Positions 5,518 through 47,768 of a stretch of DNA of 62,975 bases are shown piece by piece. The stretch spans positions 1-62,975 of the forward strand of contig CANNVE010000016.1 in NCBI GenBank assembly GCA_947525975.1, in the 5' to 3' direction. The translations under genes were made by a program, and so were the position numbers. This stretch comes from an uncultured Muribaculaceae bacterium. GTDB lineage: Bacteria > Bacteroidota > Bacteroidia > Bacteroidales > Muribaculaceae. The first letter of the stretch is position 1, and each line of letters opens with the position of its first letter. The notes under the pieces are model-generated. The model was not told the origin of the DNA. It saw nothing but the letters and a program-made list of their open reading frames with translations, and did not search any database.

Positions 5518-5835
5518 TTAAGCGACAATGTCTTTGATCACGACTTTGGTGAACTGCTGGCGATGGCCGTTCTTGCGGCGATAGCCCTTGCGACGCTTCT
5601 TCTTGAAGACGATCACTTTGTCACCTTTCACGAGGGGAGTAGCCACCTCGCATACTACTTTGGCGCCCTCTACTACGGGCATGCCGATCTTCACATCGCC
5701 GTCGTTGTCAGCGAGAAGAACGCGGTCGAACTCTACTGTCTGGCCTTCTTCAACGCCTTCGATGTGCTGGACATACAGGAAACGGTCCTTTTCAGCCTTG
5801 AACTGCTGTCCCTGGATTTCTACGATAACGTACAT
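5518..5835 (-). CDS. rplU: 50S ribosomal protein bL21
   Basis: The 105-residue protein begins [19 protein letters not shown] and ends with the basic C-terminal segment [16 protein letters not shown] typical of L21, which binds 23S rRNA. It is the first gene of the rplU-rpmA pair, and a TATCTTTG box lies 85-92 nt upstream of its ATG. Confidence 0.97.
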
Positions 5836-5919
5836 TTAAATATGTAAATTTAAACAGGTTAACCCGCCGGGCGGACGACACGCGCCTCTTGATGGAGCCC
5901 GTTACGGAAAAATTGCATG

Positions 5920-5951
5920 CAAAGATAGCGCTTTTCCGCCACTCTACCAAG
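5920..5951 (-). promoter_or_regulatory. Promoter of rplU-rpmA
   Basis: On the minus strand TATCTTTG occupies 5927-5920, with CTTG 20 nt upstream (5951-5948) as an imperfect -33 box. The leader before rplU would be about 80 nt. Confidence 0.6.
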
Positions 5952-6112
5952 CATTTCGCCAATTATTTCATCATTATTTTGTTTAAGTGACAACGGATAC
6001 GCATCCAAAGTCAATCCCTCTTTGATAAAATCGTCTATACACCTAAGAACAGACTAAATTTCACAAACAATGTATCGATTTATCGTAGTACACACATCCT
6101 AAATATGCCATA

Positions 6113-6168
6113 TTATCGAAGTTTACAATACAAATATTTGGTTATTTACCGAAGTTTGGCTATTTTTG
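6113..6168 (+). promoter_or_regulatory. Promoter and possible operator of the ATPase gene
   Basis: TTTG (6137-6140) and TATTTTTG (6161-6168) are 20 nt apart, a full Bacteroidetes promoter. Two imperfect direct repeats, TTATCGAAGTTTA (6113-6125) and TTACCGAAGTTTG (6146-6158), flank and occupy the spacer. A repressor bound there would block RNA polymerase, so an operator is plausible but inferred. Confidence 0.6.
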
Positions 6169-6187
6169 CACAATAAATATAAGACAA

Positions 6188-7456
6188 ATGGATACTTCAG
6201 TATTGCTTGAAATATTGCGTGACCAACGAGAGGAACTTGATTCGCTTCGCTCCCAATCCTTTTGCGAACGAAAAGAAGAAGCCATGATTAAACTTGATAG
6301 CAAAAAGGCTCAAGTTGTGATAGGTGTACGCCGCAGCGGAAAATCGACATTATGTTTCAACGTATTGAATAATGCCCAAGTTAAATTTGCATATGTGAAT
6401 TTTGACGACGAGCGTTTAGTTCGTCTGTCAGCCGATGACCTTAACGATGTATTAAAATGTCTCTACCAGATTTATGGAGACTTCACTCATCTGTTTCTTG
6501 ACGAGGCACAGAATATTGATGGATGGCATCTCTTTGTCAATCGATTGCTACGTCATGGAATGAAGGTGATCATAACCGGCAGCAATGCAAAACTACTCAG
6601 TAGCGAGCTTTCCACATATCTCACCGGACGCTATAATGAAATCGAATTGCTTCCTTTCTCATTCCGTGAATTTTGCGAAATGGAAAAAGTGGAAACAACT
6701 AATCTTTCTACAAAAACGGACGCTTTACTCCGAAGAGCTTTTGACAGGTACATGGATACAGGCGGCTTCCCAGAAATAATCAGCGGAGAAGAAACCGCCG
6801 ATGAATATATCGACACACTTGTTTCAAACATTTTGGAAAGAGACATAGTACAACGTTTTAAGGTAAGATACAAAGATGCTTTTAAGTCTCTATCAAATCA
6901 TCTTATGAATAATGCCCCATGCGAAATTGTATATACAGCTTTGCAGAAGACTTTTAATTTCAAGAATGACAAAACAGTTGAAAATTATGTCGGATACCTT
7001 TATCAAGCCTATCTATTGAAACAACTGCGCAAATATTCTACCAAAAGCAGTGAGCGCATTCGCAATGCCAAATGTTATCCCATAGATGTTTCGCTTATGA
7101 ACGCCAGAAAAAACGCATTCGCGAAAGACAATTTTGGATGGAGACTTGAATCTTTGGTTTATTTGGCGTTATGCAGGAAATATGGAACCGGTTACGATAT
7201 CTATTATCACAAAACAGACTCTTACGAAGTGGATTTCGTAGTTTGTCATCGAGCAACGGTTATAGAGCTTGTACAGGTCTCCTATGACATATCCTCTGAA
7301 AAAACTCTCAATAGAGAGACTTCCGCATTGGCGAAAGCCGGAAAATCACTCAATTGCGACAATTTGACTCTGGTCACCGCCTTTGAGGAGCGTGTGGCTG
7401 ATGTGCATGGACAATCCGTCAATGTCAATGCTGCCTACAAATGGCTTCTTACATAA
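6188..7456 (+). CDS. Accessory ATP-binding protein (AAA_14 / DUF4143 type)
   Basis: The 422-residue protein has a Walker A motif GVRRSGKST at 46-54, Walker B LFLDEAQN with DE at 105-106, and a sensor-like ITGSNAKLL. Its C-terminal region has YEVDFVV followed by IELVQVSYD, matching the position of the restriction-endonuclease-like DUF4143 half, but the usual E-x-K lysine is replaced. These proteins are widespread in Bacteroidetes, often in many copies, and have no firm function. The gene is visibly AT-richer than its neighbours and stands alone, which suggests horizontal acquisition. Confidence 0.82.
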   Translation: MDTSVLLEILRDQREELDSLRSQSFCERKEEAMIKLDSKKAQVVIGVRRSGKSTLCFNVLNNAQVKFAYVNFDDERLVRLSADDLNDVLKCLYQIYGDFTHLFLDEAQNIDGWHLFVNRLLRHGMKVIITGSNAKLLSSELSTYLTGRYNEIELLPFSFREFCEMEKVETTNLSTKTDALLRRAFDRYMDTGGFPEIISGEETADEYIDTLVSNILERDIVQRFKVRYKDAFKSLSNHLMNNAPCEIVYTALQKTFNFKNDKTVENYVGYLYQAYLLKQLRKYSTKSSERIRNAKCYPIDVSLMNARKNAFAKDNFGWRLESLVYLALCRKYGTGYDIYYHKTDSYEVDFVVCHRATVIELVQVSYDISSEKTLNRETSALAKAGKSLNCDNLTLVTAFEERVADVHGQSVNVNAAYKWLLT

Positions 7457-38176: not shown

Positions 38177-38336
38177 CTGACATTTTTCTTACGTTTGTCA
38201 CAGACCCTCTCAAATTTGACGTTAAAATATCTTAAAAGGCCTCTCCACGGTGGCTTCGCGCCGATATCCTCCCGCTTGGCGCCCATCTTTGGCATGCGCG
38301 CACAATATATCGGGCAGAAAGGGCGTTATATCTATC

Positions 38337-41300
38337 GTGGATATACGCGCGCGCCGATACATGCTGAATGCGGCCGCCGCCTTGCTGTGCTTGGCGGCGG
38401 CGTGCCTGCTGTCGGCCTGCAACGCGCAGAAAAAAAACACCGCAGCCGCCCGGCAGTACACGGCATTCATCACTCGATACAACATACACTACAACGGCGA
38501 CAAGCACTATAAGGAGACCCTCTCCGACATGGAATCGGGCTATGAGGATGACTATTCGCGCTTCGTATTCATGCACCCCGTCGAGGCGAAGGCCGACGCG
38601 AAGGCGCCGCAGCCATCAGGAAATTTCGACCGCAGCATCGAGAAGGCGCAGAAAGCCATACAGATCCGGTCGATAAAGAAAAAGCCTAGGCGCAAGCCGG
38701 GGCGAGGCAGCGACCCCGCCTACAAGGCATGGCTCAAGAGAGACGAATACAATCCATTCATCCATAACTCCTGGATGCTGATGGGGCGCAGCCAATACTA
38801 CAACGGCGATTTCCTCGGAGCGGCATCTACTTTTTTCTACGTCGCGAAGCATTTCTCCTGGCTGCCCAAGACCGTGACAGAGGCCAAGCTTTGGCAAGCC
38901 CAATGCTATCTGTCGCTCGACTGGCTCTACGAAGCCGAGATGATATTAACGCGCATCAAGCCCGACGACCTGTCGACATCGGGCCTGCGGCAGCTTTATG
39001 ATTTCTGCTACGCCGACTTCCTGGTGCGAAGCAAGGACTACGCCAAGGCCGTGCCGTATCTGCAGAAGGCCATCGACGGGGCGTCAGGCGCGCAAAAGAC
39101 GAGGCTGAGGTTTCTGCTCGGGCAGATATATACGGCTTTGGGCGAGAAAAAGCTTGCATACGAAGCCTTCAAGAAAGCAGGAGGCTCGGCTTCGGCCCCC
39201 TACCGCACCAAATTCAACGCCCGAATCAAGCAGAGCGAGGTGTTTGACGGCGGCGACATCTCGGGCGAGGTGAAAGCCCTGCGGCGCATGGCCAGGTATG
39301 ACCGCAACAAGGAATACCTCGACCAGATATATTACGCCATAGGCAACCTCTACCTCTCGCGCCGCGACACCGCACACGCCATCGAGAACTACGAGCTCGC
39401 GGCGGCCAAGAGCACGCGCGGGGGCATCGACAAGGCCATTTCGCAGATCACCCTCGGCAACATTTATTTCGACCTGCGCCGCTACGACAAAGCTCAGCCA
39501 TGCTATTCGGAGGCTGTGCCGATGCTGCCTGAATCATATCCCGACTACAACCTGCTCAAGCGCCGGTCAGACGTGCTCGACGAGCTTGCCGTCTACTCGC
39601 AGAACGTCTCTATGCAGGACTCACTGCTGCACGTGGCGTCTCTGCCCGAAGACCAGCAGCTGGCCATCATCGACCGCCTTATCAAGGAACTGAAGGACCG
39701 CGAAAAGAAAGAGGCCGAGGAGCGGAACCGCGAAGAATACATGGCTCAGCAGCAGGCATCAGGCTCCCAGCTCAACGACCGCGACCAGCGTCAATATGAG
39801 ATTAACACTGACGGCAGCTGGTACTTCTACAATCCGTCTTCACGCAATTCGGGCAAGACCGAATTTCAGCGCCGATGGGGCAGCCGAAAGCTTGAAGACG
39901 ACTGGCGCCGGCGCAACAAAGCCTCCTTCAACACATCGGACTTCGAAGAGGCGGATGAGACAGACGAGCAAGACAATCCTGACGATTCCGGCTCGACCGA
40001 GGCTGCGGAGACACCCGACAAATCTGACGGGTCTGACCCCAACGATCCCCACAACCGCGAATACTACCTCGCCAACCTGCCATCCACGCCCGAGCAGAAG
40101 GCCACCGCTCACGAGGTGATACAAGACGGCCTCTACAACATGGGCATAATACTCAAGGACAAACTCGAAGACTACAGCGCGGCTCTGGCCGAGTTTGACC
40201 GCCTGCTGCGCGAATACCCCGACAACGTATACCGCCTCGACATATACTACAACCTCTACCTTATGTATATGCGCCAAGGCAACACCGCCGAGGCCGAGAA
40301 ATACAGGCAGCTGATACTGACCGACTTTGCTGAATCGCCTTACGCCTTGGCCCTCAGCAACCCGGATTACATCGAGGACCTGCGGCAGATGGACCGCCGG
40401 CAGCAGGAACTCTACGACGCCACCTACGAGGCCTACCTCGCCAACCGCAACGACGAAGTGCACCGGGCCTACGGCACCATGATGGAGAAATATCCGCTGA
40501 GTCCGATTATGCCTAAATTCATGTTTCTCGACGCGCTGGCATACGTCACCGAAAAGGACACTGACAGCTTCAGGTCGGTGTTGCGCGAGCTGCTTGACCG
40601 ATACCCCGACACCGACATCACTCCCATAGCCTCAGCGTGGCTCACCGGCCTGGCCAAGGGCCGGCAGATACAGGCCCAGGCCGAGGGAAACCTGCGCGGC
40701 ATGCTGTGGGACATAAGGCTATCGGCCGACTCGGCCTCTATGGCAGCCGACAGCATAGCCGCCGCATTCGAGATCAACGAGGACTCGCCCCAGCTGCTGG
40801 TGCTCGTATATCCCACCGACAGCGTATCGGCCAACGCCCTGCTCTACGAAGTGGCGCGATTCAACTTCAACTCTTTCGTCGTTAAGGATTTCGACCTCGA
40901 GGTGATGAACTTTGGCCGCCTCGGGATGTTAATCATTAGGGGATTCGACAATCAGCGCGAGCTCAACCACTACCGCAGCGTGATGGCCGCAAGCCCGATA
41001 TTCAGGCTCCCGCGCGGAGTGCGCCCCATAGCCATCTCGGCAAAGAATTTTGACACACTGCTGCAGCAAGGGAGGTCGTTTGACGATTATTTCCGATTCC
41101 TTCAAGAGCAAAACTACATCGACGCCCAGGCCGACATCCTCAAAGCAGAAGAGATAGAGACCCTGCCCGAGGCCGAAGAGGCTGCCGCCCTCCCGAGCGA
41201 CGAAACCGAGCCCGCGCAGGCGCCGCCCACACCCGAAGAGCCGGCACCGGCCCCGACTCCTGCCCCGGTTCTGACTCCAACTCCTGCTCCTACCGCGCCC

Positions 41301-41372
41301 GACAAGCCGACCTCTCCTCCGATCATACCCACAGGCAGCGAGGGCGACGACGACCCCCTGCTGCAAGATTAA
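38337..41372 (+). CDS. TPR lipoprotein related to SprE/PorW
   Basis: This is a large (about 1010 residues) lipoprotein with a signal peptide ending in LLSAC. I prefer the GTG at 38337, which gives an Arg-rich n-region (DIRARRYMLNAAAALLC); ATG 38361 is the alternative, and a longer frame to 38250 adds no signal-like sequence. TPR-type helices fill most of the protein (FIHNSWMLMGRSQYYNGDFL; AIGNLYLSRRDTAHAIENYE). An acidic linker lies near 530-590 and a Pro/Ala/Thr-rich tail ends the protein. The build and the PorX-like neighbour match PorW/SprE, a type IX secretion lipoprotein, though no T9SS core gene is visible here. Homologues occur in Bacteroidetes without T9SS. Confidence 0.72.
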   Translation: MDIRARRYMLNAAAALLCLAAACLLSACNAQKKNTAAARQYTAFITRYNIHYNGDKHYKETLSDMESGYEDDYSRFVFMHPVEAKADAKAPQPSGNFDRSIEKAQKAIQIRSIKKKPRRKPGRGSDPAYKAWLKRDEYNPFIHNSWMLMGRSQYYNGDFLGAASTFFYVAKHFSWLPKTVTEAKLWQAQCYLSLDWLYEAEMILTRIKPDDLSTSGLRQLYDFCYADFLVRSKDYAKAVPYLQKAIDGASGAQKTRLRFLLGQIYTALGEKKLAYEAFKKAGGSASAPYRTKFNARIKQSEVFDGGDISGEVKALRRMARYDRNKEYLDQIYYAIGNLYLSRRDTAHAIENYELAAAKSTRGGIDKAISQITLGNIYFDLRRYDKAQPCYSEAVPMLPESYPDYNLLKRRSDVLDELAVYSQNVSMQDSLLHVASLPEDQQLAIIDRLIKELKDREKKEAEERNREEYMAQQQASGSQLNDRDQRQYEINTDGSWYFYNPSSRNSGKTEFQRRWGSRKLEDDWRRRNKASFNTSDFEEADETDEQDNPDDSGSTEAAETPDKSDGSDPNDPHNREYYLANLPSTPEQKATAHEVIQDGLYNMGIILKDKLEDYSAALAEFDRLLREYPDNVYRLDIYYNLYLMYMRQGNTAEAEKYRQLILTDFAESPYALALSNPDYIEDLRQMDRRQQELYDATYEAYLANRNDEVHRAYGTMMEKYPLSPIMPKFMFLDALAYVTEKDTDSFRSVLRELLDRYPDTDITPIASAWLTGLAKGRQIQAQAEGNLRGMLWDIRLSADSASMAADSIAAAFEINEDSPQLLVLVYPTDSVSANALLYEVARFNFNSFVVKDFDLEVMNFGRLGMLIIRGFDNQRELNHYRSVMAASPIFRLPRGVRPIAISAKNFDTLLQQGRSFDDYFRFLQEQNYIDAQADILKAEEIETLPEAEEAAALPSDETEPAQAPPTPEEPAPAPTPAPVLTPTPAPTAPDKPTSPPIIPTGSEGDDDPLLQD

Positions 41373-43018: not shown

Positions 43019-43438
43019 TCAGTTGATAAAGACATGGTCAAACCATGCGGGCACGATAAATGAATTGAAGAGAATCATCACGGCCACCGACAGCAGAAAC
43101 ACCGCCGCGCTCTTTTTGGCATGGCAAACGCCTGCGAGCGCAGTGCCCAAAAGCGCCGAAATCACGAAGATCGCCGACATGCGGCCTTCTGACCAACTCG
43201 ACGCAATGACCAAGACGGGAAGCAGGTTTGCACCCACAGCCGCTGCCGAAAGCAATGCACCGCTGCCGGCCTTGTCTCTGAATTTGACCAAGATAAAGTA
43301 CGTGGCCGCGAAAATCCACATCATCCAGCTCCAGCAGGCGTTGGAGTCAGACTTGATGGCAAGCACCCAGAAGATGCAAAGATAGGCGCAGACGGCAATG
43401 CCAGCCGCCTTAAGCCAAATGAGAAATTTTGGATTCAT
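43019..43438 (-). CDS. Small membrane protein of unknown function
   Basis: I do not recognise the 139-residue protein. Four hydrophobic segments are visible (about 10-27, 36-50, 62-80, 85-103 and a further one near 113-130). It begins 12 nt after the stop of the fulvocin-C-like lipoprotein gene and is read in the same direction, so cotranscription is plausible. Its base composition is clearly GC-richer than the four upstream genes, placing the island boundary at about 43440. Confidence 0.6.
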   Translation of the reverse strand: MNPKFLIWLKAAGIAVCAYLCIFWVLAIKSDSNACWSWMMWIFAATYFILVKFRDKAGSGALLSAAAVGANLLPVLVIASSWSEGRMSAIFVISALLGTALAGVCHAKKSAAVFLLSVAVMILFNSFIVPAWFDHVFIN

Positions 43439-43450
43439 ATTTCAAATACA

Positions 43451-44143
43451 CTAAGCTGGTCCGTAGCCATAAATACCACATCTACCATTGCAGGATTGCA
43501 ATATAAGCCACCCGCATCCATGCTCTGAGGATCCACAACCAGAATCAGACATACACTCACTGCTACCATTACAGAAGTCATGCTTTTGATTACAATTACA
43601 CGAACTATCCTCTTCTTCATCCTCTGAAAGAATGGACGTTCTTGTTGTATTTTTCATTAAAGCCAAATCTCCATTGGTATTCAATACTTTACGCCCAGAA
43701 CCAATTACAGCTCTAACTTTTAATTCGTCCCAGCCAAGTTCATCCATTGCGAATTCCATCCATTTATAACAGAATGCATCTATGATATCATCTCGCTCTT
43801 CAATAGAAAGTTCATTGGAGAATATCTCTTTATGAAAGTTAACGAACTCCTGCGCCTTACAGATATGCCCAAGTTCTTCATTAGTCCAAGGCAATAGCAT
43901 AAGTTCCTCAAACTTGTCATTCCAAAAGACAAGACGTTGTGTAGGGGTAAAGGCGCGATACATCGCATTCGCAGCTTCACTTGAAGAGTTCAGCCAATCC
44001 TCTCGATCCATTGTACGGATTTCTTTCAGATTGTTTTTCACCCAATTATTCACTTCTTTATCACAGCTGAAGATCTCATCTTCTGAAGTGCACGCACCCA
44101 TCAGAAGACCAGCCATAATTAAAAATAAAATTTTAATTTTCAT
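43451..44143 (-). CDS. Lipoprotein with C-terminal fulvocin-C-like 8-cysteine domain
   Basis: The 230-residue protein (ATG 44143 chosen; a GTG at 44149 adds two residues) has a lipoprotein signal MKIKILFLIMAGLLMGAC (C18). An acidic, helical middle of about 150 residues follows. The last ~49 residues carry eight cysteines: CNC, then spaced Cys, GCG and a final SCNGRCGIYGYG. This spacing resembles the mature myxobacterial bacteriocin fulvocin C, which has eight cysteines in four disulfides. Related proteins are annotated in Bacteroidetes as fulvocin C-related, with unknown activity. The gene is AT-rich and the fourth gene of the island operon. Confidence 0.75.
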   Translation of the reverse strand: MKIKILFLIMAGLLMGACTSEDEIFSCDKEVNNWVKNNLKEIRTMDREDWLNSSSEAANAMYRAFTPTQRLVFWNDKFEELMLLPWTNEELGHICKAQEFVNFHKEIFSNELSIEERDDIIDAFCYKWMEFAMDELGWDELKVRAVIGSGRKVLNTNGDLALMKNTTRTSILSEDEEEDSSCNCNQKHDFCNGSSECMSDSGCGSSEHGCGWLILQSCNGRCGIYGYGPA

Positions 44144-44201
44144 AGTCACTTTTGTTTAACATTAACAATTCTTATTGACGGGCCTCTTTTTTTATGCTAC
44201 A

Positions 44202-45335
44202 TTACATAGCCTTTCGAATAAATTGTTTTTGGATTTTAACAAATCTATTCATCATGTAATTACAAACTTTGAGAGGCCCGTCTTTATATTCCTCCAGAAC
44301 AAAGCAAAAATACAAAAATAGAAAACTTATTATCCAAAACACGATTTGGTTATCAATAGTATATATCGACAAAATATCAGTTAAATCAACACATAACAAA
44401 TCAACCAATTTCATTGAAAACATATTAAGATCCATCTTTCCAGTAATCACTCCGTTGTTTAATCTCAACAAACCAAATTCCGAAGGGAATATGGCATTAA
44501 ACAAAGACGCATCTATAACATACAGATTTTTATGGGACTTAATAAAAGCAACTTCATCAGAAACATATGTTGTTACAAATAAGATGGAATGGTCTTTGTT
44601 CAAATTAGAAATAGCATTCCTATAAATCCCAAAATCTATATCCGCTATATCCATCCGACGATTAAAGAAGATAAAAATCTCCTCTCCATCTATATAATCG
44701 ATATCAGAACTTTCAATTACGTTTAATGGCGTATTTTGATTATTCAAGTTGTCTATCTCAAAAATAGGTGCGCCATACCTAACAACGGAAACATCGTCTC
44801 CGATACGATAGAATGAAGCATCAATCATAGCAGGATATAACAGAGCTCTGACACAAAATAATCCAATCCAAAGAAACAATAAAAAAACAATAAAACCATT
44901 ATGTTTTCTTTCACTTTTTATTGTTCTAAAAACAATAGATAATATTGATAAAAGCACTAATATGATATTCTTATAAAATGATGTCCAGGGGTCAATCATC
45001 CACATAGAACCGAAGCACCCGCAATCCGTCAATAAGTTATTTGACGCGACATCATATGTAAGTATTAGAAAAAAGACACAAATAATCAGACACACCCATT
45101 TTGTGTATTGATTAAAGAAATTGAATAGAAGAAATACTCCAATTAACAATTCCAAACAGACAAAAAAAACTGTCGTCAACAAAACCTCTTCAGATCCAAA
45201 ATTAAGATTGAAGATATCCAAATAGGCACTTACCGTCACTGTGGTAGAATTGAATTCTGAACCTTTTACAAAAGCAGAACACAAAAAGACCACCGCCAAA
45301 ATCTTATTTACAAACAATAGGATTATATTCCTCAT
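44202..45335 (-). CDS. MauE/DoxX-type redox membrane protein with extra C-terminal domain
   Basis: The 377-residue protein starts with a four-helix MauE/DoxX-like domain (about 1-140) holding the C105-G-C107 pair in LLTDCGCFGS, typical of membrane proteins linked to thiol redox. After a membrane helix (about 146-165), residues 190-330 look like a periplasmic alpha/beta domain (EEIFIFFNRR...ILFVTTYVSDE...LYVIDASLF) without any C-x-x-C. A last helix and a basic tail end the protein. It lies 3 nt after the DUF1573 gene and before the cysteine-rich lipoprotein gene, which suggests a role in that protein's folding or delivery. Confidence 0.7.
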   Translation of the reverse strand: MRNIILLFVNKILAVVFLCSAFVKGSEFNSTTVTVSAYLDIFNLNFGSEEVLLTTVFFVCLELLIGVFLLFNFFNQYTKWVCLIICVFFLILTYDVASNNLLTDCGCFGSMWMIDPWTSFYKNIILVLLSILSIVFRTIKSERKHNGFIVFLLFLWIGLFCVRALLYPAMIDASFYRIGDDVSVVRYGAPIFEIDNLNNQNTPLNVIESSDIDYIDGEEIFIFFNRRMDIADIDFGIYRNAISNLNKDHSILFVTTYVSDEVAFIKSHKNLYVIDASLFNAIFPSEFGLLRLNNGVITGKMDLNMFSMKLVDLLCVDLTDILSIYTIDNQIVFWIISFLFLYFCFVLEEYKDGPLKVCNYMMNRFVKIQKQFIRKAM

Positions 45336-45338
45336 TTT

Positions 45339-45758
45339 TCAGTCTTTAACATCTCCTTTGATTCGAAGAACTATCAGACCATCAACATCATAATTGACAA
45401 AAATGGCCTTGCTCAAATGCCCATATTGGTTAGATATGTTGATATTACCTGAAACTATTCCATGTTCTCCAGGCGGTATCACATTCGACTTATAGATGAC
45501 ATTCACACAACCACAACTCACATCAACTTTTCCTAAATACACAGAATCAGTTGTATTGTTTAAAATATCGAATGAAAAATCATGGATAGAATCATGATTA
45601 CTTTTAGAAATAACACCAATATCAAAGTGTTTAGGAGTCAGTGTAAAATCTATTTCATTTACTGTCTTTTGTTCTATTTGTGTATCGACATTATCTTTTT
45701 TTTGGCAAGACAACACGAAACCCACCAATATAAATACGATTAGCTTCCTCATATCCAT
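45339..45758 (-). CDS. DUF1573 domain lipoprotein
   Basis: The 139-residue protein has a lipobox (FVLSC, C18) and one DUF1573 immunoglobulin-like domain: TPKHFDIGVISKSN, then DVSCGCVNV with C82 and C84, and PPGEHGIVSGNI. DUF1573 domains are common in Bacteroidetes envelope proteins and have no firm function. It lies 3 nt from the genes on either side, so it is tightly packed in the island operon. Confidence 0.82.
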   Translation of the reverse strand: MDMRKLIVFILVGFVLSCQKKDNVDTQIEQKTVNEIDFTLTPKHFDIGVISKSNHDSIHDFSFDILNNTTDSVYLGKVDVSCGCVNVIYKSNVIPPGEHGIVSGNINISNQYGHLSKAIFVNYDVDGLIVLRIKGDVKD

Positions 45759-45761
45759 AAT

Positions 45762-47480
45762 TTATTTTTTAACATATTCCTTTATCATATCTACTTGTCT
45801 TGACGGTATTTTCACCGACTTATTTACAATATCAAACCGCAGTTTTCCAAGGGAAATACTATCTTGCAATTCTTCATAGATTTTATATTTTTCAAATAAT
45901 GGAACAAAACGATTGGGACACATCCTCTGCGCCATATTAAGTTCTGTTATAGCGGACGGAAAATCTCTCATATTAATGTACACATTGGATTTGAGCATAG
46001 CCACCTCATAATCATATATACCATTTTTGTCAATTAAATACAAAGCCTTTTGATAGTTACCGCTCAAGTTCTCAAAATAAGCCATATTATAAAGGAATTG
46101 TGGAGATGATAAAAAAAGTGATGCTTTTTCATAACATCTTGATGCATCTTCAAATTTACCAACCTGTGTGTATGATATAGCTTTACTCCAATTATGGCAC
46201 CCTATAATTTCTTTTATAGACAAACTTGACGTTATGATGAAAACAATAAATAAAAAAAATCCTTCAAACATACATTTACTCTTTAAGATCGAATCATTAT
46301 CTTGTTTGAAAAATTTCCTTTCCGAAACCGCAAAAGAAAAAACCAGCCAAGTGATGGGATATTTCATCGGATATGAAAAACACATAAATACGACAATTAT
46401 CAACATTGATAATTTACAAAATATATTGTTAGAGGTTATAGCAAGGAATATTAAGAAAACAATAATTCCAATCATAAACAATCCATACTCTATCATCCAA
46501 AGTATAAACTCATTTAATGGATGCCTTATATTACCTGCCCTAAACTTATATTCAAAAGGCAAGAGTTCCAAAGACGACGCTTGGGCTTTCATATATTCCT
46601 TTTTAAATGCGCCTCCACCTATGCCAACCACATAATCATTCGGTTGTTCCAACAAAGACATAGACGTCTGTATAATATATTGACGCCCCATTGTTGATTC
46701 TACCTTTTTTAAATTACTTTTTGAAATAAGTACAATTAATCCTATAACGACCAACGACATGACCATTCTAATTCTATAGTTTGACAAGGAATACAATAGA
46801 ACAACTACCGATGCGAACAACGCAGTCCTAGCCAAAATACAATAGAAGATTAAAATATTAATTACTATATAGATATACGAAAACTGTTTTATCCATTTTA
46901 TGGAACCAATACGAGACAAACATACGATAGACAACATACTTAATGTCATCGTGAGAGTCAAAGGTGTAATCTCTCTAGCTGGAACATCGAAACACCCTTT
47001 TATTATAAATAAAAAAAGAATATATATAACAGAAATAATACCTGCAAAAATAAGTCCCACACACACTGTTACGTATTTTAATCTAAGCCTCTCGAAATTA
47101 AATGTTAACAAAACTGACGCTCCAATAGCAATAAGACCTTCACAACTACCTCCTCTTAAAAAGAAATAAATAAGAAGAGTTAAAAACATAAACATAGGTA
47201 AATTATTACAATTTCGTGTCGTCAAGGCAATTTGTTTGGATTTAACTAAACACACAATATACATAGTAATAACATACCCCACATAAATATACCACTTCAA
47301 ACGAGTATCACGTATGATTGTAGTATCTACATCAACACAACAAATACTAATTATCACGATGCAAGTGATTATACATAAGAACATATTAGATTCTAATTTC
47401 GTCCCCAAATTATCAATAATATGTCGTTTGGAATACCTATACATCTTTATTAAGATAGAACTTACTGTTGATGGATACAT
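45762..47480 (-). CDS. Polytopic O-antigen-ligase-like protein with C-terminal TPR region
   Basis: The 572-residue protein has about ten membrane helices (roughly 30-425) with a Wzy/WaaL-like loop (YVVGIGGGAFKKEYMKAQ and HPLNEFILWMIEYG). A soluble tail of about 150 residues follows with TPR-like repeats (AISYTQVGKFEDASRCYEKA; ENLSGNYQKALYLIDKNG). The N(x2)E-type motif in the large loop is a family hallmark of O-antigen ligases and polymerases. No sugar-pathway gene is adjacent, so the substrate may not be O-antigen. It is the first gene of the AT-rich operon, 20 nt downstream of a full promoter. Confidence 0.72.
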   Translation of the reverse strand: MYPSTVSSILIKMYRYSKRHIIDNLGTKLESNMFLCIITCIVIISICCVDVDTTIIRDTRLKWYIYVGYVITMYIVCLVKSKQIALTTRNCNNLPMFMFLTLLIYFFLRGGSCEGLIAIGASVLLTFNFERLRLKYVTVCVGLIFAGIISVIYILFLFIIKGCFDVPAREITPLTLTMTLSMLSIVCLSRIGSIKWIKQFSYIYIVINILIFYCILARTALFASVVVLLYSLSNYRIRMVMSLVVIGLIVLISKSNLKKVESTMGRQYIIQTSMSLLEQPNDYVVGIGGGAFKKEYMKAQASSLELLPFEYKFRAGNIRHPLNEFILWMIEYGLFMIGIIVFLIFLAITSNNIFCKLSMLIIVVFMCFSYPMKYPITWLVFSFAVSERKFFKQDNDSILKSKCMFEGFFLFIVFIITSSLSIKEIIGCHNWSKAISYTQVGKFEDASRCYEKASLFLSSPQFLYNMAYFENLSGNYQKALYLIDKNGIYDYEVAMLKSNVYINMRDFPSAITELNMAQRMCPNRFVPLFEKYKIYEELQDSISLGKLRFDIVNKSVKIPSRQVDMIKEYVKK

Positions 47481-47499
47481 ATGAACTATGAATTATTCG

Positions 47500-47531
47500 C
47501 AAATATAGACACACACATCAATAAAATCAAA
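47500..47531 (-). promoter_or_regulatory. Promoter of the fulvocin-like island operon
   Basis: TTTG (47531-47528), exactly 20 nt, then TATATTTG (47507-47500) on the minus strand. The -7 box ends 19 nt before the ATG at 47480, so the leader is very short. Confidence 0.8.
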
Positions 47532-47635: not shown

Positions 47636-47680
47636 TAAAAGAAAAACAGCTGTCGTCACGACAGCCGCAGTTCTTTTTTT
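47636..47680. terminator. Hairpin with flanking A and T runs
   Basis: Stem GCTGTCG/CGACAGC (47649-47655 and 47659-47665) with loop TCA, flanked by an A-rich run on the left and TTCTTTTTTT (47671-47680) on the right, so it can terminate in both directions. No plus-strand gene precedes it. Confidence 0.55.
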
Positions 47681-47714
47681 ACCTTAAATCTAATACCATT
47701 TACGATAATAAAAC

Positions 47715-47746
47715 ACGCGCCGGCGAAAAAAGGTTCGCCGGCGCGT
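47715..47746 (-). terminator. Terminator of the yitT-OMP operon
   Basis: Perfect 12-bp inverted repeat (47715-47726 and 47735-47746) with an 8-nt loop, followed on the minus strand by GTTTTATTA. It lies 22 nt past the stop of the outer-membrane protein gene. Confidence 0.75.
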
Positions 47747-47768
47747 ATATTTTTTCGAAAAAAAAATT

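Follow-up and report, generated by a model that had tools for sequence, protein, structure and literature searches.

What does a compact, AT-rich operon make when its last gene encodes a relative of a bacteriocin, and what do the membrane and redox proteins encoded ahead of that gene contribute? The question is raised by contig CANNVE010000016.1 (assembly GCA_947525975.1) of an uncultured Muribaculaceae bacterium (Bacteroidota; Bacteroidales), of which positions 1 to 62,975, the whole stretch of DNA analysed, are referred to as the window. Four consecutive minus-strand genes (47480-43451, with intergenic gaps of 3, 3 and 58 nt) end in the gene of a fulvocin C-related lipoprotein, P0001, and the link between this protein family and thiol-redox genes is well supported across the loci that we compared. 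Our preferred reading, held with a little less than even confidence, is that P0001 would be a precursor, anchored by lipid, in which dedicated redox partners form the disulfide bonds of the C-terminal domain, and that this domain is then perhaps released as a bacteriocin-like peptide.

47500-47531, minus strand: Bacteroides-type promoter, TTTG-N20-TATATTTG, a pattern match serving the operon
45762-47480, minus strand: P0004, membrane protein of 572 aa (by eye, from its hydrophobic segments) with TPR-like C-terminal repeats
45339-45758, minus strand: P0003, 139 aa DUF1573 protein (Pfam) with a lipobox (by eye) and an SCGC motif
44202-45335, minus strand: P0002, 377 aa MauE-domain membrane protein (Pfam) with a DCGCFG motif
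43451-44143, minus strand: P0001, 230 aa fulvocin C-related lipoprotein (NF033852), last gene of the operon
44090-44143, minus strand: signal peptide and lipobox (Cys18) of P0001, read from the translation
43664-44062, minus strand: predicted N-terminal helical domain of P0001, approximately residues 28-160 (AlphaFold2)
43478-43600, minus strand: eight-cysteine C-terminal domain of P0001, residues 182-222 (translation and alignment)

The operon and its proteins

An earlier note on this DNA had described an AT-rich four-gene operon on the minus strand behind a shared promoter, and both descriptions stand. The G+C content of the operon is 32.5% (31, 33, 31 and 39% for the genes in operon order), as compared with 48.9-59.9% in 255 equal-size slices taken elsewhere in the window at a step of 200, and with 54.6% for the window overall; the operon looks foreign. 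Positions 47500-47531 fit the pattern TTTG-N20-TAnnTTTG, which is matched six times in the window against a mean of 0.43 in 100 shuffles. The operon is not the sole AT-rich stretch, a second and shorter one occurring at 5751-7250 (36-41% G+C).

P0001 scores 108.3 bits (E 6.2e-31) against the NCBIfam model NF033852, 'bacteriocin fulvocin C-related', for which the curated cut-off is 35, and its alignment occupies profile positions 2-149 of 150, with the tail covered, so that a relation to fulvocin C first proposed from the eight tail cysteines holds as family membership. The cysteines follow the family spacing: the tail opens with C-x-C and closes with C-x7-C-x3-C in 17/17 aligned members, the window's included, and no CxxC pair occurs in the tail of P0001. 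Fulvocin C of Myxococcus fulvus is a free peptide known for decades, whereas P0001 is a predicted lipoprotein known here from the gene alone. An AlphaFold2 model (4 sequences) predicts with moderate confidence that the N-terminal domain is a helical bundle (block-mean pLDDT of 63-88 over residues 31-150); in the tail, pLDDT is below 50 at residues 164-212 and 216-230. A lipobox is visible by eye in 16 of the 17 aligned members (a simple pattern recovers 13 and picks another Cys in two), and in P0001 Cys18 is followed by T-S-E-D-E, placing acidic residues at +4 to +6 in a manner resembling the surface lipoprotein export signal. Because acidic residues at about +3 to +5 past the lipid cysteine send lipoproteins of Bacteroidetes to the surface, according to excerpts of PMC5080379, surface placement of P0001 is plausible, as predicted from its lipobox and acidic residues.

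Profile searches upheld two of the three other family assignments in the earlier note and reduced the last, an O-antigen-ligase-like protein with TPR repeats, to distant kinship. P0003 exceeds the Pfam cut-off for DUF1573 (PF07610; 49.2 bits vs 26.1, E 5.6e-13), as does P0002 that for MauE (PF07291; 43.2 bits vs 27, E 5.8e-11). P0002 also has the MauE part and the overall layout of the BT_3928 family (NF045576) but is shorter and scores under the curated cut-off (118.5 bits vs 250); judged by this resemblance, it is a divergent, shorter relative, and its C-terminal domain may be thioredoxin-like without CxxC, a putative inactive thioredoxin. P0002 matches were found in 96 of 99 sampled genomes of the order, and the window's genome has a second such match elsewhere (at G000:C5). 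No O-antigen-ligase model, Wzy_C (PF04932) included, matched P0004 at E up to 1; the protein's matches to TPR models fall below the Pfam cut-offs. It aligns at 26% over 441 aa (4.7e-28) with a Bacteroides finegoldii protein that matches Wzy_C at 5.7e-19; since it is this homologue and not P0004 that matches the model, P0004 is described here as distantly O-antigen-ligase-like. The sequence H-P-L-N-E-F lies in P0004 at the position of the His motif of O-antigen ligases. Its His is kept in a minority of 20 aligned P0004-family members, among which N323, R266, G286 and G288 occur in 20/20.

A rare and patchy family

NF033852 was matched in 4 of 395 genomes sampled from the phylum, 9 of 395 from the class, 8 of 393 from the order and 3 of 198 from the family, counts that each contain the window's own genome, that take in some tail-less or broken genes and that come from overlapping draws. 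Whole-genome searches covered Bacteroidota and were supplemented by one pattern scan of all GTDB species, using a single N-domain motif, which led to three confirmed loci. Members of the family are rare in Bacteroidota and patchily distributed. In one genus, 3/7 genomes (2/5 of the well-completed ones) carry the gene, and eight relatives share 17-37% identity with P0001; L029 and L038 lie closest to the window by path in a tree, without strong support.

The comparisons of gene context use 18 distinct tailed loci, namely those from the genome searches together with one Flavobacterium contig and one Bacteroides finegoldii record. Excluded were G131 (gene broken in two frames), the tail-less G590, both tail-less G950 matches and a G769 paralogue that also lacks the tail; L017 and L018, as duplicates of G407 and G643, are not counted separately. 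Three of the 18 (L040-L042) come from one genus, and for L030, where the stretch begins 130 nt before the gene, upstream genes are outside the scope. L045 is included though it scores just under the cut-off of 35 (32.8 bits in one search, 34.8 in another) and stands outside the 17 aligned members. It encodes a 105-aa secreted protein (L045:9072-9389) consisting of a signal peptide and an eight-cysteine tail with no N-domain, and it adjoins a membrane thioredoxin and a DCC1-like thiol oxidoreductase.

The converse arrangement also occurs. Genes encoding only the N-domain, with signal peptides recognised by eye, were seen at L016:1468-2270, L033:8529-8975, L014:1477-1911 and L037:1389-1943, one of them directly after a full-length gene, and in a fifth gene (L016:1923-2270) only a remnant of the tail is left. 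It is possible that the N-domain-only genes encode immunity proteins or are decayed copies.

Linkage to thiol-redox genes

The suggestion that the lipoprotein has dedicated redox partners gained support from the other loci. A thioredoxin-domain gene is the direct neighbour of the fulvocin-related gene at 14 of the 17 other tailed loci, being next downstream on the same strand at 13 and divergent at one (L028; Pfam AhpC-TSA, 1.1e-21). The same-strand partners have hydrophobic N-terminal segments (by eye) and a C-terminal thioredoxin domain, in which CxxC and an invariant Pro, probably the cis-Pro, are kept in 13/13, and 12/13 match Pfam Thioredoxin_8 at E up to 0.01. When gene placement was randomised, a mean of 1.8 adjacent loci was obtained and none of 20,000 trials reached the 13 observed, these 13 being 12 same-strand loci plus L028, with the L043 partner absent from that gene list. 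As a control, 12 PorX stretches from the same genus (one only 5.4 kb long) contained no such thioredoxin and no MauE gene, and DUF1573 in two.

The window's operon has no thioredoxin-domain gene and has genes for the MauE and DUF1573 proteins instead, the CxxC thioredoxin of loci elsewhere standing at the place of the window's MauE gene. DUF1573 is found at 5/18 loci (the window, L019, L027, L029 and L038) and an O-antigen-ligase-like gene at 3/18, all in Bacteroidales (the window, L029 of Heminiphilus and L038 of B. finegoldii). Co-occurrence of four families, as envisaged in the earlier note, was borne out in part: three of them (fulvocin-related, DUF1573 and O-antigen-ligase-like) stand together at 3/18 loci, and all four in the window alone. 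Candidates at L039, at L044 and in the window (a TPR protein, 38250-41372) gave weak far matches (E 1e-5 to 1e-4) and were left out of the O-antigen-ligase-like count.

P0004 relatives and NVEALA peptide clusters

Relatives of P0004 were matched in 12 of 198 genomes of the order, the window's own included, and connect the operon with other peptide loci. A transglutaminase/discoidin protein is encoded in 9 of 18 stretches around P0004 matches, four of the nine being seeds of the profile used, and in both L029 (where the copy is split over several frames) and L038 one of its relatives is encoded ahead of DUF1573 and the fulvocin-related gene. Four places, distributed over the two genomes G347 and G694, have NVEALA genes no more than 9 kb away from a P0004 relative, at one of them by a match under the cut-off alone. 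Any NVEALA match at all is present in 4 of the 12 genomes with a P0004 match, in G663 and G643 on other contigs, and NVEALA (Pfam PF14055) has 0 matches in the window's genome.

One NVEALA cluster, L150:526-9967, has its own signal peptidase together with transglutaminase-like and O-antigen-ligase-like proteins. In order of transcription it encodes an NVEALA peptide, a TolB-like propeller protein, a thioredoxin-like/DUF1573 fusion, a second NVEALA peptide, a propeller-like protein and a thiol protein (both by eye), the signal peptidase, the transglutaminase-like protein (Pfam match below the cut-off) and a P0004 relative. The fusion, L150:7807-8667, is a single protein with a thioredoxin-like part (CxxC by eye, matches under the cut-offs) and DUF1573, and as a natural fusion it would tie DUF1573 to thiol chemistry. 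L150 differs from the window's operon in its small NVEALA peptide cargo, propeller protein and signal peptidase; because a P0004 relative, DUF1573 and a thioredoxin-like part are common to both, the operon looks like a compact relative of the NVEALA/P0004 clusters with a different cargo.

A search of 72,556 plasmid records turned up a single record with a relative of P0001 (at E up to 0.01); that record is also the only one in which a relative of P0004 (at E up to 1e-5) was found, and the two genes are 6 kb apart. The record, NZ_OY725911.1 of Bacteroides finegoldii (L038 / L151), is labelled a plasmid, and the 49 kb of it that were read carry many polysaccharide-use genes; the stretch reads like chromosome rather than plasmid.

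A proposed maturation route and its rivals

From these parts we infer the following route. P0001 would be exported, receive its lipid and probably end up on the cell surface, with its N-terminal helical part serving as carrier and the 41-residue C-terminal domain forming as many as four disulfide bonds on folding. P0002, of MauE type, and the DUF1573 protein P0003 would take over the role that a membrane-tethered thioredoxin has in most of the relatives and set the periplasmic redox state of the tail cysteines, either oxidising or proofreading them. P0004, as an accessory common to other Bacteroidales peptide clusters, may decorate the product or hand it on. A protease would finally cut off the folded domain to yield a bacteriocin-like peptide active against neighbours. 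We consider redox maturation of the tail fairly probable, and the release of an antibacterial peptide a possibility somewhat short of an even chance.

Two known systems offer partial parallels. MauE and MauD mature the small subunit of methylamine dehydrogenase, and by analogy P0002 would be the MauE-type counterpart encoded next to an exported protein rich in disulfides; the cargoes are not known to be related, and the window's operon lacks a MauD-type CxxC thioredoxin. The second is BcpT of Phocaeicola, likewise a predicted lipoprotein precursor of Bacteroidales, with activity in a C-terminal fragment, as is proposed here for P0001. BcpT differs in its length of 499 aa and in the small lipoprotein immunity gene of its operon, and it is activated by C11 proteases (all from excerpts of PMC9308784, the main text of which does not use the word disulfide). 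The gene that follows P0001 encodes P0005, which has no lipobox by eye and no counterpart at other loci, and the operon's other lipoprotein is P0003. A partial C11 peptidase match is present at a contig edge in the window's genome.

Several observations weigh against release of a redox-matured peptide. Neither a conserved immunity gene nor a peptidase-domain exporter was recognised, as the earlier note had also reported, and the linkers of aligned P0001 relatives show no shared Arg and no common cut site. The lipobox of 16/17 members is also what one would expect of a protein retained on the cell, and the N-domain is not only a leader, since four genes (L014, L016, L033 and L037) encode it and no tail. 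On the redox side, P0002 has by eye no CxxC and only the CGC of MauE; its C-terminal part alone gave no profile match to the thioredoxin partners, and at family level the corresponding part of its relatives matched them weakly (probability 20%, E 0.0012). Three of the 17 other loci have no thioredoxin neighbour: in L027 DUF1573 adjoins, and the one MauE gene seen outside the window lies further on with two genes between; in L029 DUF1573 is accompanied by an unassigned membrane protein and the O-antigen-ligase-like gene; and in L033 the adjoining gene is the tail-less paralogue. MauE inside the operon is found in the window alone among the 18 loci, and our own thioredoxin profile was trained on nine of the 13 partners, which is why the independent Pfam check matters.

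Retention of the domain on the cell, as a binding module, is nearly as likely as a released peptide. P0001 would then be a surface cysteine-rich lipoprotein, structural or binding in function (an adhesin, or a glycan- or host-factor-binding protein) and matured with the help of these redox partners, and the family would owe the name 'bacteriocin' to over-extension from a single myxobacterial peptide; we take this to be a serious contender, with about a third of our belief. Lipidation next to residues resembling an export signal fits it, as do the lack of a recognised immunity gene, the existence of N-domain-only paralogues and the recurrence of thioredoxin, DUF1573 and O-antigen-ligase-like parts in an NVEALA cluster. 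The family is nonetheless patchy and fast-diverging (17-37% identity; 3/7 genomes in one genus), more in the manner of a competition factor than of a housekeeping protein, and in L045 the tail is a short secreted protein without N-domain.

The remaining explanations shift the product elsewhere. An envelope thiol-redox or stress system, in which the cysteine-rich lipoprotein is a redox carrier or metal buffer and not a product, would account for the MauE, DUF1573 and thioredoxin-domain neighbours and for the DCC1-like thiol oxidoreductase at L045. Such a carrier would be odd without a CxxC pair in the window's tail, with tail spacing held constant while partners vary, and in a family so rare when the BT_3928-type MauE protein is nearly universal (96/99 sampled genomes), and we judge it unlikely. 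Slightly less likely again is that P0004 is a protein glycosyltransferase dedicated to P0001, the product being a glycosylated cysteine-rich peptide. The homology of P0004 to a Wzy_C protein, its H-P-L-N-E-F at the ligase His-motif position and the linkage at 3/18 fulvocin loci point that way, but this His is missing from most of the 20 aligned family members, and the fetched stretches of 15/18 loci contain no convincing gene of this kind (two weak far matches, E 1e-5 to 1e-4).

Expression signals and the neighbouring gene

47646-47748, minus strand: two tandem terminator-like hairpins (47748-47713 and 47668-47646), from a consensus scan and inverted repeats
44305-44338, minus strand: second promoter-like match, TTTG-N22-TAnnTTTG, from the pattern alone
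44177-44282, minus strand: RNA hairpin with an 11-bp GC-rich outer stem, from an inverted repeat and a folding test
43019-43438, minus strand: P0005, 139 aa membrane protein, a neighbour, from translation and composition

The tandem hairpins sit between the operon and an upstream outer-membrane-protein-like gene; the consensus scan found four terminator-like sites in the region as against 3.0 expected. The second promoter-like match lies inside the end of the MauE gene and is directed at the fulvocin-related gene. The RNA hairpin covers the end of the MauE gene and runs into the gap ahead of the P0001 gene, with arms at 44177-44187 and 44272-44282 that match at 100% within very AT-rich DNA; its folding z is -5.5, 0/200 shuffles fold equally well, and no Rfam match was obtained. 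Together with the internal promoter-like match it could provide a putative control of P0001 expression separate from that of its partners.

The gene of P0005 starts 12 nt past the P0001 stop and had been offered both as an immunity candidate and as a mere neighbour, the span first assigned to the system (43019..47531) taking it in. No similar protein was found at E up to 0.1 in 18 other fulvocin-family loci (17 tailed, one broken), and its G+C content of 53% is native-like; elsewhere in the genome it has a 27% paralogue, and 48 other genomes of the same genus yielded one weak match. Because of the native G+C and the lack of a counterpart at other loci, P0005 is probably a neighbour and not part of the system, and the immunity role finds no support.

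Implications

A literature search found nothing on the gene context or the making of fulvocin C relatives, for which the recurrent thioredoxin-domain membrane protein next door is a candidate maturation route. The shared DUF1573 and O-antigen-ligase-like parts connect fulvocin-related loci with gut NVEALA clusters. A more speculative picture, which we rate as rather unlikely in its entirety, is that Bacteroidota contain a scattering of lipid-anchored pro-bacteriocins, each with a dedicated membrane thioredoxin to oxidise its C-terminal domain of fulvocin C type, that in gut Bacteroidales these merged with the DUF1573/O-antigen-ligase-like apparatus of NVEALA clusters, and that a MauE-type protein took the place of the thioredoxin in the window. 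If this were true, NVEALA clusters would form a larger, related class of peptide systems sharing a maturation apparatus. Few bacteriocins are known from Bacteroidales, according to excerpts of PMC10352776, and if the tail is antibacterial it would add a disulfide-rich class to them.

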